The position numbers and the translations under genes are program-made. 64,000 bases of DNA. Source: Amycolatopsis methanolica 239 (lineage in GTDB: Bacteria; Actinomycetota; Actinomycetes; Mycobacteriales; Pseudonocardiaceae). The DNA is taken from contig NZ_CP009110.1 of the NCBI RefSeq assembly GCF_000739085.1, positions 5,332,001 to 5,396,000 of the forward strand. Reading direction: 5' to 3'. Below are positions 27,050 through 32,064 of this stretch, one piece after another; positions within the stretch are counted from its first letter, which is position 1; each line of letters opens with the position of its first letter. The notes beneath the pieces are model-generated. The model saw nothing but the letters and a program-made list of their open reading frames with translations. It was not told where the DNA came from and ran no database searches.

Positions 27050-28444
27050 TCAGAGCCCGTACGCCTCCAGCAGCCGCAGCCACACCTCGCTGATCGTGGG
27101 GAACGACGGGACCGCGTGCCACAGCCTTCCCAGCGGGACCTCGCCCGCGATGGCGACGGTCGCCGAGTGCAGCAGCTCCGCGACGTCCTGGCCGACGAAC
27201 GTGACGCCGACCAGCACCTCGCGCTCGGTGTCGACGATCATCCTGGCCTTGCCCGCGTAGCCGTCCGCGTGCAGCGACGACCCCGAGACGGCGATGTCGA
27301 TGTCGACCACCCGGTGCGGCGCGCCCGATTCGGGCTCGGTCAGGCCCACCGAGGCGACCTCCGGGTCGGTGAACACGACCTGCGGCACCGCGTGGTGGTC
27401 GGCGGTGGCGCTGTGCTTGCCCCACGGCCGGGTGTCCACCGGCTTGCCCGTGGCGCGCGCGGAGATCACGTCCCCGACCACGCGGGCGGCGTACTTGCCC
27501 TGGTGCGTCAGCAACGCGCGGCCGGTGACGTCGCCGGCCGCGTACAGCCACTGGCCGTCCACTTCGGACACCAGGCCGCTGTCGTCAACGGTGAGCGGCT
27601 TGCCCGGCGCGAGCCCGATGACCTCCAGGCCGAGGTCGTCGGTCGCGGGACGCCGCCCGGTCGCGACGAGCACCTGGTCGGCCGTGACGACCGCGCCACC
27701 CTTGAGCTCCAGCCGGGCGGCACCGTCCACTCGGGAGGCTCGCTCCAGGCCGGAGTCGGTGTGCACGCGGACGCCATCGGCCCGCAGGCCCTCCGCGACG
27801 GCGTCGCCGGCGAAGTCCGGGTACCGCGGCAGCGGGCGCGGGCCGGTGACGATCAGGTCCACCTGCGCGCCGAGCCGGGCCCAGGCCTGCGCCATCTCGA
27901 CGCCGACCACCCCGCCGCCGACGACGGCCAGCCTGCCCGGCACCGTGCTGCTGGACGTGGCTTCGCGGGAACCCCACACCGGCACCTCGTCCAGGCCCGG
28001 GATCGGCGGCGTCTTCGGCACGCTGCCGGTACAGACCACCACGGCGTGCCGCGCCCGCAGGACCCGGCCGCCGTCCACAGTGATCTCGCGCTCACCGGTG
28101 ATGCGGCCGCGCCCGCGGATCGTCGTGATGCCCGCGCCGCGCGCCCACTCGACCTGACCGGTGTCGTCGCCCTTGCCGGTGAAGTAGTCGCGGCGTTCGA
28201 ACACCGCCGCCGGGTCAAGCGCTTCGCCCACCGGAACGCCGGGCAGCCGGCGGGCCGCGGCGAGCGCGTTTCCCGGTCGCAGCAAGGCTTTGCTCGGGAT
28301 GCACGCCCAGTAGGAGCACTCGCCCCCGAACCGTTCCCACTCCACCAGCGCGGTGGACAGGCCGCCCTTGACCGCCCGGTCCGCCGCGTTCTCCCCCACC
28401 GGTCCGCCACCGATCACGATGACGTCAAGAGTCTCCTCGGACAT
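27050..28444 (-). CDS. FAD-dependent pyridine nucleotide-disulfide oxidoreductase
   Basis: A 464-residue class I flavoprotein disulfide reductase. FAD motif DVIVIGGGPVGENAA opens the protein. The redox disulfide is in FGGECSYWACIPSK (two Cys separated by four residues). NAD(P) motif RLAVVGGGVVGVEMAQ lies near residue 170, and the second FAD motif is LYAAGDVTG. The C-terminal interface carries HAVPSFPTISEVW with the catalytic His. Family members include lipoamide dehydrogenase, mercuric reductase and soluble transhydrogenase-like enzymes. The sequence does not settle which, and no E2 or mer gene is adjacent. Divergent from the Lsr2-like gene. Confidence 0.88.
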   Translation of the reverse strand: MSEETLDVIVIGGGPVGENAADRAVKGGLSTALVEWERFGGECSYWACIPSKALLRPGNALAAARRLPGVPVGEALDPAAVFERRDYFTGKGDDTGQVEWARGAGITTIRGRGRITGEREITVDGGRVLRARHAVVVCTGSVPKTPPIPGLDEVPVWGSREATSSSTVPGRLAVVGGGVVGVEMAQAWARLGAQVDLIVTGPRPLPRYPDFAGDAVAEGLRADGVRVHTDSGLERASRVDGAARLELKGGAVVTADQVLVATGRRPATDDLGLEVIGLAPGKPLTVDDSGLVSEVDGQWLYAAGDVTGRALLTHQGKYAARVVGDVISARATGKPVDTRPWGKHSATADHHAVPQVVFTDPEVASVGLTEPESGAPHRVVDIDIAVSGSSLHADGYAGKARMIVDTEREVLVGVTFVGQDVAELLHSATVAIAGEVPLGRLWHAVPSFPTISEVWLRLLEAYGL

Positions 28445-28528
28445 GGGTCACAGCGCACACCAGCCCGGCGCCCGGCGCAAGTGGGGCGGGTATTCTCAGC
28501 GGCAAATCGTAAGTACTGGAGGTTATCG

Positions 28529-29305
28529 GTGGCGAAGAACACCGCGGTGCAACTACTGGACGACCTGAACGGCGAACCGGCCGCGGAGACGGTGCGGTTC
28601 GGCCTGGACGGCGTCGAGTACGACATCGACCTCTCGGACTCGAACGCGGGCAGCCTGCGCGAGCTGCTGGCCACCTACGTGCAGGCGGGCCGCCGCACGG
28701 GCGGCCGCAAGCGTCCGCCGCGCCGCCTCGCCCCGATGAAGCGCACGCGCCGCACGGCGAACTCCACTGCCGCGACGGCGCGGAAGGCCGCGGACTCGCC
28801 GTCGAAGAAGACGGCCGCCACCGGGACGGCGAAGGCCCCTACCACGGCGGGCAAGCGCACGACCGCTCGCACGGCGGCCGTGGGCAAGACGGTGAAGGCG
28901 GAGGCCGCTGCCAAGGCCACCAGCCCGAAGCCGGCCACCCGGCGCAAGGCCACCCCGGCGGCGCCGAAGACCACCGACACCAAGACGACCAGGGGCAAGA
29001 AGACCACGGCGGCGGCGAAGACCGCTGACGCCAGCACGCCGAAGCCGGCCACCCGGCGCAGGGCCACCACGGTTTCCGCGCCGAAGACCACCGCGACGGA
29101 GGCCGCGGCGGAGGGCAAGAAGACCAAGCCCGCCGCGAAGCCGTCGCGCGCCAAGGCGAAGGCCAAGCCCGCCGAGGCCGCGCCCGCGAAGGAGAACACG
29201 ACCGCCAAGAAGCCGTCCACGAAGAAGGTCGCGCCGGCGGAGAAGGCTCCTCGCAAGACCGTGCGCAAGGCGCCGCCCGTGGTGTTCTCCGCGGCCACGA
29301 ACTGA
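28529..29305 (+). CDS. Lsr2 N-terminal domain fused to histone H1-like tail
   Basis: A 258-residue basic protein. Residues 1-58 match the Lsr2 dimerisation domain: VAKNTAVQLLDDLNG, ETVRFGLDGVEYDIDLS, LRELLATYVQAGRRTGGR. The Lsr2 C-terminal DNA-binding domain with its R-G-R hook is absent. It is replaced by about 195 residues of Lys, Ala, Thr and Pro in the style of histone H1 and HU-tail proteins. Two copies of KPATRRxAT, each followed by an AAPKTT or SAPKTT motif, are visible. GTG start with GGAGG 6 bases upstream. Predicted nucleoid protein that oligomerises through the Lsr2 part and coats DNA through the tail (inference). Single gene, divergent from an oxidoreductase. Confidence 0.85.
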   Translation: MAKNTAVQLLDDLNGEPAAETVRFGLDGVEYDIDLSDSNAGSLRELLATYVQAGRRTGGRKRPPRRLAPMKRTRRTANSTAATARKAADSPSKKTAATGTAKAPTTAGKRTTARTAAVGKTVKAEAAAKATSPKPATRRKATPAAPKTTDTKTTRGKKTTAAAKTADASTPKPATRRRATTVSAPKTTATEAAAEGKKTKPAAKPSRAKAKAKPAEAAPAKENTTAKKPSTKKVAPAEKAPRKTVRKAPPVVFSAATN

Positions 29306-29540: not shown

Positions 29541-30869
29541 TCAGCGGTCGATGCCGAGGTGCTCCCGCAGCGTGGTGCCGCTGTAGTCGGCGCGGAACAC
29601 GCCCCGCTCCTGCAACAACGGCACCACCTTGTCCGCGAACGGGTCCAGCCCGCCGGGCGTCACGTGCGGCACCAGGATGAACCCGTCGCTGGCGTCCTCC
29701 TGCACGTACGTGTTGATCGCCTCGGCGACCGTCTCCGGGGAGCCGACGAACGTCTGCCGCCCGCTGACCTCGACCACCAGGTCCCGGATCGACAGGTTCT
29801 TCGCCTCCGCCAGCTCCCGCCACTGCCGCACCGTCGCCACCGGGTCGCGGTACATGCGCGTCTGCGCGCGTCCCTTGGCGACCGACTCCGCGCCGACCAC
29901 CGGCTCGACCTCGGGCAGCGGCCCCTCCGGGTCGTAGCCGGACAGGTCGCGGTTCCACACCTGCTCCAGGAACTTGATCGCCGTCTGGCCGCTTACCTGC
30001 TGGTACCGCACGACGTTCGCCAGCTCCTCGGCCTCCGCGTCGGTGTCACCGAGCACGAATGTCGCCGCGGGGAGCACCAGCAGCTGGTGCGGCTCGCGCC
30101 CGTAGGCGGGCAACCGGCGCTTCACGTCGGCGTAGAACTTCTGCCCCGCCTCCAGCGTCCCGTGCCGCGTGAAGATCGCGTCCGCCGTCGCCGCGGCGAA
30201 CTCGCGGCCCTCGTCCGAGTCGCCCGCCTGCAGGATCACCGGCCTGCCCTGCGGACCGCGCGGCGCGTTGAACCGGCCCGCGATGTCGAACTGCGCGTCG
30301 TGGTGCTCGAACGCGCCCGCACGGGCGTTGCGCAGGAACACCCCGGACGCCTTGTCGGCGGCGATGTCGTCCGCGCCCCAGGAGTCGAACAGCTCGAACG
30401 CGGTCTGCAGGAACAACTTCGCGCGCTGGTAACGCTGTTCCTCGGGCAGGTAGCCGCCACGGCGGAAGTTCTTGCCGGTGAACGCGTCCCACGAGGTGAC
30501 CACGTTCCACCCGGCGCGGCCTTCGGAGAGGTGGTCGAGGCTGGCGAACTGGCGGGCCACCTCGTACGGCTCGTTGAACGTCGAGTTGATCGTCCCGGCC
30601 AGGCCGAGCCGGTCCGTGACGGCGGCGAGCGCGGCCAGCACGGTGAACGTGTCCGGCCGGCCGACCACGTCCAGGTCGTAGATCTGGCCCGCGTGCTCGC
30701 GCAGCCGCAGTCCTTCGGCGAGGAAGAAGAAATCGAACTTGGCCCGCTCGGCGGTGCGCGCGAGGTGCGTGAACGAGGAGAACTCGATGTGGCTGCCCGC
30801 CTCCGGGTCGCTCCACACCGTGGTGTTGTTGACGCCGGGGAAGTGCGCGGCGAGGTGGATCTGCTTCAT
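29541..30869 (-). CDS. FMN-dependent monooxygenase, NtaA/SnaA/DszA type
   Basis: A 442-residue luciferase-like (LLM) monooxygenase using reduced FMN from a separate reductase. Family landmarks: IHLAAHFPGVNNTTVWSDP at the N-terminus, FDFFFLAEGLRLRE, GLAGTINSTFNEPYEVARQFASLDHLSEGRAGWNVVTS, and the C-terminal GSPETVAEAINTYV plus FILVPHVTPGGLDPF. Relatives oxidise chelators, sulfones or pristinamycin, so the substrate is open. Its ATG overlaps the stop of the upstream monooxygenase by 4 bases, so the two are coupled. No flavin reductase or sulfonate transporter is adjacent. Confidence 0.9.
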   Translation of the reverse strand: MKQIHLAAHFPGVNNTTVWSDPEAGSHIEFSSFTHLARTAERAKFDFFFLAEGLRLREHAGQIYDLDVVGRPDTFTVLAALAAVTDRLGLAGTINSTFNEPYEVARQFASLDHLSEGRAGWNVVTSWDAFTGKNFRRGGYLPEEQRYQRAKLFLQTAFELFDSWGADDIAADKASGVFLRNARAGAFEHHDAQFDIAGRFNAPRGPQGRPVILQAGDSDEGREFAAATADAIFTRHGTLEAGQKFYADVKRRLPAYGREPHQLLVLPAATFVLGDTDAEAEELANVVRYQQVSGQTAIKFLEQVWNRDLSGYDPEGPLPEVEPVVGAESVAKGRAQTRMYRDPVATVRQWRELAEAKNLSIRDLVVEVSGRQTFVGSPETVAEAINTYVQEDASDGFILVPHVTPGGLDPFADKVVPLLQERGVFRADYSGTTLREHLGIDR

Positions 30870-31975
30870 CGCGTCGCTCCTGCGTAGCGGTTGGCGGGAC
30901 GCTCCAGGCCGAGCAGGCCCCGCAGCGTGGTGGCCTCGTACTCGCGGCGGAACACGCCGCGCTGCTGCAGTTCCGGGACGAGCCCGCGGGTGATGGCGGA
31001 CAGATCGTGCGGCAGGGCGCCCGGGCGCAGCCGGAAACCGGACAGGCCGGCGTCGCGCCAGGCCAGCAGCTGGTCGGCGAGCTGGGCCGGTGTGCCGGTG
31101 AAGACCAGCGCGTCGGAGGTGAACTCGGCGCGATCGTCCAGGCGGGCCTTGCGGTCGCGGGCCGCCTGTTCGGTCTCGTCGAGGAACACGACGATGTCGC
31201 CGAACACCAGCAGGTCATCGCGCGGGCCGCGCACCTCCTGCCCCAGAGCGCGCGCGTCGTCGGTGTCCTGCGGGGTGAGGAACACGAGGTCGGCCGAGCG
31301 GGCCGCGAGCCGGTGGATCTCGGTGACGTGCGAGAGCACCGCGACGGGCGGCTGGCCCTGCGGCGGGCGGGGCGTGATCGACGGACCCTTGACGCTGAAG
31401 AACCGCCCGGTGAAGTCGATGTAGTGCAGCTTGTCCCGGTCGATGAACCGGCCGGTGGCGGTGTCGCGGATCTCGGCGTCGTCCTCCCAGCTGTCCCACA
31501 GCCCCCGCACGACCTCGACCCAGTCACCGGCCTCCTCGGCCAGGTCGGGCAGCGGAACCGGGAACTCGCGACGGCCGAAGTGCGCCGCGTCGTCGGGGCT
31601 GCTCGCGATCCGGACGCGCACACCGCCGCGCCCGGTGGAGACGTAGTCGAGCGTCGCGATCGCCTTGGACAGGTGGAACGGTTCGGTGTGCGTGGCGATC
31701 GCCGTCGGCAGGAACCCGATGTGCCGGGTCAGCGGCGCGACGCGGGCGGCGATCAGCACGGCGTCCAGCCTGCCGTCCACCCGGTCGGTGCGCCCGTCCC
31801 GCGGCGCGCCCAGGGAGTCCTCGATCGTGACGAAGTCCAGCAGGCCGTGTTCGGCCTCGAGCACCAGACCGGCCCAGTACCGCGGGCGGAACAGCTCGTC
31901 CGGGCGCGCGTCCGGCTCCCGCCACGCGGCCGGGTGCCAGCCCGCGCCCTCCAGTGCCACCGCGAGATGAACCAT
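30866..31975 (-). CDS. LLM-class flavin monooxygenase, first of coupled pair
   Basis: A 369-residue luciferase-like monooxygenase, shorter than its downstream partner. HLAVALEGAGWHPAAWREP opens the protein. LDFVTIEDSLG, RHIGFLPTAIATHTEPFHLSKAIATLDYVSTGRGGVRV and PVAVLSHVTEIHRLAARSADLVFLTPQ follow. ATG at 31975 is chosen since AAAGGAG lies 6 bases upstream; the frame to 32038 is not needed. The shared C-terminal ending (LQQRGVFRREYEATTLRGLLGL, compared with the partner's LQERGVFRADYSGTTLREHLGI) shows the two are distant paralogues of the same NtaA-like group. Confidence 0.88.
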   Translation of the reverse strand: MVHLAVALEGAGWHPAAWREPDARPDELFRPRYWAGLVLEAEHGLLDFVTIEDSLGAPRDGRTDRVDGRLDAVLIAARVAPLTRHIGFLPTAIATHTEPFHLSKAIATLDYVSTGRGGVRVRIASSPDDAAHFGRREFPVPLPDLAEEAGDWVEVVRGLWDSWEDDAEIRDTATGRFIDRDKLHYIDFTGRFFSVKGPSITPRPPQGQPPVAVLSHVTEIHRLAARSADLVFLTPQDTDDARALGQEVRGPRDDLLVFGDIVVFLDETEQAARDRKARLDDRAEFTSDALVFTGTPAQLADQLLAWRDAGLSGFRLRPGALPHDLSAITRGLVPELQQRGVFRREYEATTLRGLLGLERPANRYAGATR

Positions 31976-32064
31976 GCCTCGCTCCTTTCGCCTCCCCCGG
32001 TCCAGCGATTGGGCGGCCCGCGCTATTTCGCGTACCACCCGTTGGGACGCCTACGGTGGGAGAC

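Follow-up and report, generated by a model that had tools for sequence, protein, structure and literature searches.

An Lsr2 paralogue of Amycolatopsis methanolica without a DNA-binding domain carries a variable tail and a conserved C-terminal peptide

Lsr2, which corresponds in actinobacteria to H-NS, is a silencer of foreign DNA and of cryptic antibiotic clusters, and its C-terminal DNA-binding domain (DBD; PF23359) carries a (Q/R)GR loop. A gene of Amycolatopsis methanolica 239 raises the question of what a protein with the N-terminal domain of Lsr2 and no such DBD could do. The gene lies in a stretch of 64,000 nucleotides (the window; contig NZ_CP009110.1, positions 5,332,001 to 5,396,000) from a genome of 7,237,391 bases in one contig. 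It opens with a GTG codon 6 nt past a GGAGG sequence, closes with TGA and encodes 258 residues (Table 1). An initial sequence-only reading had described the product as an Lsr2 dimerisation domain joined to a histone H1-like tail that would coat DNA regardless of sequence.

That reading called the first 58 or so residues Lsr2-like and was to be dropped if no significant Lsr2 match appeared. The Pfam model PF11774 covered residues 1–58 end to end (58 of 58 positions) with an E-value of 1.2e-24 and 86.1 bits, the cut-off being 29.6. The domain also matched the N-domain structure of M. tuberculosis Lsr2 (4e1p, E = 7.6e-15; also 4e1r), two Lsr2-like phage families of the PHROGs collection matched the N-terminal part of the protein, and the full-length Lsr2 of the same genome was 56% identical to it over residues 1–62. 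In the AlphaFold model of the full chain (single chain, 51 similar sequences; mean pLDDT 56.9, pTM 0.22), the N-domain folded as beta-beta-alpha, with block pLDDT values of 79–84 over residues 21–50. Its dN/dS was 0–0.38 across six genome pairs. Homology predicts that the domain dimerises; excerpts of PMC3374832 state that N-Lsr2 alone dimerises and that chains form after removal of three N-terminal residues.

The claimed loss of the DBD was likewise confirmed. The window protein showed no Pfam family besides PF11774 and no NCBIfam family at E ≤ 1, PF23359 gave no Pfam match in it, and a tblastn search with the DBD of the genome's own Lsr2, covering all frames around the gene, returned no credible match (best E 0.61). 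The protein is a PF11774 paralogue that lacks the domain distinguishing Lsr2 proper. A DBD lost through a frameshift had been named as the second possible objection; this, together with a sequencing artefact, was ruled out, as all 19 genus genomes share the architecture and no frame around the window gene gave a credible DBD match.

Table 1. Features of the locus, in window coordinates.
Feature	Position	Strand	Evidence or remark
FAD pyridine-nucleotide-disulphide oxidoreductase, divergent neighbour	27050..28444	-	PF07992/PF02852; conserved locus marker, functional link not implied
TATTCT, -10-like hexamer (resemblance only), in the 84-bp gap between the divergent genes	28491..28496	+	Identical in 9/9 aligned genomes
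GGAGG ribosome-binding site	28518..28522	+	Sequence; kept in 9/9 aligned genomes
DBD-less Lsr2 paralogue, 258 aa	28529..29305	+	Reading frame; architecture common to 19/19 genus genomes
Lsr2 dimerisation domain, residues 1-58	28529..28702	+	PF11774, 86.1 bits; 4e1p/4e1r; AlphaFold beta-beta-alpha
Basic hinge GRRTGGRKRPPRR..., residues 55-72	28691..28744	+	First half conserved in homologue alignments
Low-complexity K/A/T/P tail with two KPATRR copies, residues 73-242	28745..29254	+	Composition; AlphaFold without secondary structure
C-terminal motif P-P-V-V-F-S-A, residues 249-255	29273..29293	+	Family form carried by 127/131 distinct DBD-less proteins
Two overlapping luciferase-like monooxygenases (NtaA/DmoA type), downstream	29541-32038	-	

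The source genome held two PF11774 matches, the window gene and a full-length Lsr2 at G000:C1:6714885, whose presence elsewhere in the genome had been anticipated. The suggested survey of co-occurrence found a DBD-bearing Lsr2 together with a DBD-less fusion of 205–404 residues in each of the 19 Amycolatopsis genomes. At family level, at least 28 of 130 sampled genomes, from 9 of 46 genera, contained the fusion (a lower bound, based on the best matches fetched), and in each of the 28 the N-domain model matched at least once more. Another forty Lsr2 matches from the family, chosen for their long open frames and including L199 and L202, all possessed the DBD. In the species-representative collection, 238 loci were confirmed; the best 80 comprised 47 fusions, from Amycolatopsis, Prauserella, Saccharomonospora and Qaidamihabitans, and 33 DBD-bearing Lsr2s, mostly in records named outside the family. 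By locus proteins, the closest sampled relatives of the source genome were G015 and A. tucumanensis.

The N-domains of the DBD-less fusions form one clade. In a tree of 97 of the 236 distinct N-domains (thinned randomly; 66 columns), all 43 fusions used fell on one side of a branch with support of 98/94, recovered in 98% of bootstrap trees; the finer forks were unresolved and the bootstrap had not quite settled. Four proteins (P0003, P0061, P0064 and P0068) were left out, and P0071 was filed with a second DBD-less family, of which 8 of 14 members were used. Phages were also considered as the source of the architecture. The N-domain matched 55 phage records, and the three phage Lsr2 records that were opened carry the DBD and lack such a tail, one of them (L198) having a short extension. 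PHROG 6509, 70 positions long, hints at N-domain-only phage proteins, so phages may still be a source.

The two-part architecture of the sequence-only reading, N-domain plus tail, was borne out, and a third part had been overlooked. The window protein consists of an N-domain, a variable tail and a terminal peptide, each with its own conservation pattern. Among 131 distinct DBD-less proteins, with total lengths of 120 to 404 residues, 127 carry the motif P-x-[VI]-x-F-S-[ASN] at their C-terminus; P and F were fixed in the pattern used for counting, the S/T position was S in all 127, and P0071 of the second family is among these. The 131 sequences (64 with a fetched locus, 67 as protein records only) come from overlapping sets of species representatives, protein clusters and metagenomes. 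The motif was missing in P0003 and P0061, which lie on short contigs, in P0064, which has no contig data, and in the frameshifted-looking P0068. Selection acts on the peptide, because its P, V, S and A codons differ by synonymous changes among 70 DNA-read sequences (including the DBD-bearing L199). For the last 16 residues, dN/dS was 0–0.68 in the six genome pairs, with one value undefined and tiny numbers underlying the rest. The AlphaFold model, from a single chain and 51 similar sequences, gave the last 18 residues pLDDT values of 61–67, somewhat above those of most of the tail, with no strand and no docking on the N-domain. We infer that the peptide docks on a protein, and the spacing of V and F suits an edge strand.

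A decayed or frameshifted, functionless Lsr2 could account for a low-complexity, hypervariable tail. This reading is contradicted by conservation and is very improbable: the fusions make up one clade spanning at least nine genera, the N-domain is constrained (dN/dS 0–0.38), the motif is kept, the upstream region and the locus are conserved, and no DBD remnant is present in any frame.

Searched genome-wide, a PPVxF-type pattern had 4 matches and a wider pattern 32, compared with 1 and 6 for the reversed-pattern controls; the wider search took Ser TCN codings only, and 30 of its 32 matches were read. Besides the window gene, nine wider-pattern matches end within 20 codons, and these were judged by eye to be non-coding frames. 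Among the matches read, no other gene of the source genome credibly ended in the motif, and the idea of a tag common to many proteins of the genome was rejected.

The tail was correctly described as a basic, K/A/T/P-rich low-complexity region, with two KPATRR copies, in place of the DBD. Residues 67–242 have a composition of A 0.28, T 0.20, K 0.18, P 0.10, R 0.08 and D+E 0.05, with a net charge of about +0.20 per residue. Over nine genomes this composition was steady (K 0.14–0.19, A 0.28–0.40, T 0.14–0.22, D+E at most 0.05; net charge +0.17 to +0.22 per residue), and sequence and length drifted. No other part of the protein is conserved so little: in the six pairs, tail dN/dS was 0.53–0.85, with many indels and up to 164 gapped columns. 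AlphaFold assigned it no secondary structure, mostly at pLDDT 47–54. An explanation of the tail as a DNA tandem array was rejected, the tandem-array search of its DNA having found just two short, weak arrays.

The histone H1-like character of the tail is a compositional likeness, not a profile match. Linker histone H1 combines a winged-helix globular domain with a Lys-rich tail. No H1 globular domain was seen in the window protein, where PF11774 was the only family at E ≤ 1, and the HU fold (PF00216) was not reported in it, the genome's one HU match lying elsewhere. HupB/HupS proteins, with an HU domain and a Lys-rich tail, share a K/A/T-rich tail with the window protein, which lacks their HU fold, and the HupB of this genome ends in RKKK without PxVxFSA.

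Two sets of DBD-less proteins depart from the cationic composition. In Saccharomonospora iraqiensis (L140), the tail has no lysine and a net charge of +0.06 per residue, and the protein ends in AVPQVMFSAAP. The second DBD-less family (n = 14; P0071 and P0074–P0086), of which two members are named as Pseudonocardiaceae MAGs, has a middle part with P 0.17–0.21, A 0.19–0.30 and a net charge of +0.02 to +0.06 per residue. It contains conserved internal blocks such as LPAPRSAIKSRI, ends in PPMITF[ST] in all 14 members and groups apart from the fusions in the N-domain tree with weak support (70/84). Because the terminal peptide is retained even on the nearly neutral tails of L140 and the second family, we read the tail as probably a flexible, usually cationic tether whose conserved ends are a self-assembly domain and a docking peptide. 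The same near-neutrality means that coating DNA may not be the function these proteins have in common. The claim that a cationic coat defines the function lacks support in that form: it is the peptide that is kept almost without exception and the tail that is conserved least.

A near-invariant motif on a drifting tail would also be expected of an adaptor, in which the tail merely tethers and PxVxFSA serves to bring a specific partner to Lsr2 filaments. The retention of the motif on the nearly neutral tail of L140 and the 14/14 PPMITF[ST] ends of the second family point the same way, as does a looser form, P-x-[VIATML]-x-F: among 27 DBD-bearing Lsr2s that are extended at the C-terminus, 8 have it close to their end (shuffle control: mean 0.44, maximum 4 in 2000 runs). 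However, the strict form occurs in only 1 of these 27, and the looser cases come mostly from one search seeded with P0091; outside it there were 2 of 12, both from one genome. The looser motif on DBD-bearing Lsr2s is a lead, not a result. No partner was found, and no other credible motif-ending gene among the genome matches read; we consider the adaptor unlikely. Two DBD-bearing paralogues of genome G028 (L199 and L202) have an extension with VPT[VM]AFSS, which resembles the motif of the DBD-less family; this genome has 8 PF11774 matches.

We rank first, with roughly even confidence, the reading of the window protein as a DNA-coating Lsr2 partner that is itself not AT-targeted, in which the N-domain assembles, the tail contacts DNA and the peptide docks. 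A vertically inherited Lsr2 paralogue would here have swapped target reading for non-specific contact. Its N-domain, dimeric by homology, may also enter the filaments that the genome's full-length Lsr2 builds. A long cationic tail, probably disordered, would touch DNA independently of sequence, as Lys-rich tails do on HU, and the protein would thereby coat or bridge DNA beyond AT-rich tracts. PxVxFSA may act as a docking strand at the end of the tether, its target being either the N-domain of another Lsr2-type protein or some other nucleoid protein. Mixed oligomers with full-length Lsr2, which the sequence-only reading had proposed, are plausible; mixed dimers are not assured, because the N-domains of the two Lsr2-type proteins of the genome have diverged (56% identity). 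The DNA-coating reading draws on the coexistence with full-length Lsr2 in 19/19 genus genomes, the steady tail composition and charge, the low N-domain dN/dS, the near-universal motif and the single clade of fusions. Also in its favour, the genome's HupB has a comparable K/A/T tail attached to another DNA-binding fold, and basic linkers are thought to aid non-specific DNA binding by H-NS-type proteins (PMC6936261, in excerpt). Composition alone cannot separate DNA from other polyanions, and the tail might instead serve RNA or another polyanion in a condensate scaffold, but the N-domain is homologous to a nucleoid protein and the HupB of the same genome has a similar tail, which makes this improbable.

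Among known systems, the DNA-coating partner would work like a cross of Lsr2 self-assembly with a HupB tail. It shares the dimerisation domain of Lsr2 (M. tuberculosis Rv3597c; PF11774 + PF23359) and has, instead of PF23359, a low-complexity tail of ~190 residues and a C-terminal peptide. Four full-length Lsr2s with an added K/A/T/P tail (P0069, P0070, P0072 and P0073) are similar in N-domain and tail; unlike the window protein, they keep PF23359 between the two and have no terminal peptide. A second Lsr2 gene beside the main one, as here, is described in the consulted extracts for LsrL of Streptomyces (PMC6584129) and for MSMEG_1060 of M. smegmatis (PMC8125055), the latter DBD-bearing, unlike the window protein. 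MSMEG_1060 is distributed across the entire nucleoid and also binds GC-rich DNA (PMC8125055), and in the literature covered it is the nearest described paralogue with broader binding. The DNA-binding modes and heteromers of candidate Lsr2 paralogues are uninvestigated according to an excerpted review (PMC6936261). In open-licence PMC literature, mostly titles and abstracts, no description of a DBD-less Lsr2 with tail and peptide was found. As far as found, such DBD-less Lsr2 genes are catalogued and seemingly not described there; NCBI names for some homologues are 'Lsr2 family protein', 'Lsr2 dimerization domain-containing protein' and 'histone-like nucleoid-structuring protein Lsr2'.

The truncated H-NS derivative H-NST suggests a different role. 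Like the window protein, it is a DBD-less silencer derivative beside a full-length protein, and it counters H-NS, with a proposed action on oligomerisation (PMC6936261, in excerpt). It belongs to a different fold and lineage and also lacks an oligomerisation site. To our knowledge, H-NST has neither a long basic tail nor a conserved peptide at its C-terminus. By analogy, the window protein could be an antagonist that joins Lsr2 chains through its N-domain without an AT-reading domain and caps or loosens silencing filaments, the tail holding it near DNA. The lost DBD, the constrained N-domain and the complete Lsr2 alongside in 19/19 genus genomes fit such a role, and Table 1 of PMC6936261, within the portion available, marks truncated Lsr2 derivatives as 'unidentified'; a DBD-less partner in all 19 genomes of an antibiotic-producing genus would supply one. 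But a long basic tail would be superfluous for a pure antagonist, and conservation covers the early part of the basic hinge as well as the C-terminal motif. We regard antagonism as unlikely overall, ranking it with the adaptor after the DNA-coating partner.

HP1 chromoshadow dimers bind PxVxL. By analogy with them, PxVxFSA could be a beta-strand ligand for Lsr2-type N-domains, a specific proposal that we advance only tentatively. If the peptide binds N-domains, each molecule would pair a polymerisation domain with a docking strand across a long tether lying along DNA, Lsr2 filaments would be cross-linked or capped in trans without sequence reading, and tethered head-to-tail contacts, in place of DNA-reading domains, would build the nucleoid. 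More generally, a DBD-less paralogue with a terminal peptide suggests a new mode of nucleoid building or tethering. Such a partner splits self-assembly from DNA reading and lets filament tuning by non-reading partners be tested, and the conserved short peptide offers a handle.

An FAD disulphide oxidoreductase adjoins the fusion at 18/18 fetched genus loci and, in the tblastn table, at 42/47 named fusion loci (39/47 under a stricter count; the two sets of loci overlap). It was missing at L133, L134, L140, L145 and L160 under both counts. The window's copy lies near the lipoamide dehydrogenase/mercuric reductase group and scored below threshold for all 25 NCBIfam models among the matches listed. 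The luciferase-like monooxygenase pair adjoins the fusion gene at some of the genus loci only.

Several minor observations concern other Lsr2 loci. L133 and L134 (A. palatopharyngis NZ_PQHZ01000002.1) encode identical proteins ~180 kb apart, a recent duplication or an assembly artefact. Genomes G040, G127 and G152 have 9–12 PF11774 matches each, an unusual expansion of Lsr2 paralogues. The Lsr2 of L150, in a record named Tissierella sp. Marseille-P2918, is very near that of Varibaculum, possibly through contamination or a mislabelled contig. Finally, L221 (G059:C1:3334100-3335600) is an Lsr2 paralogue of 211 residues with one N-domain followed by two stretches that, by eye, resemble the DNA-binding domain.
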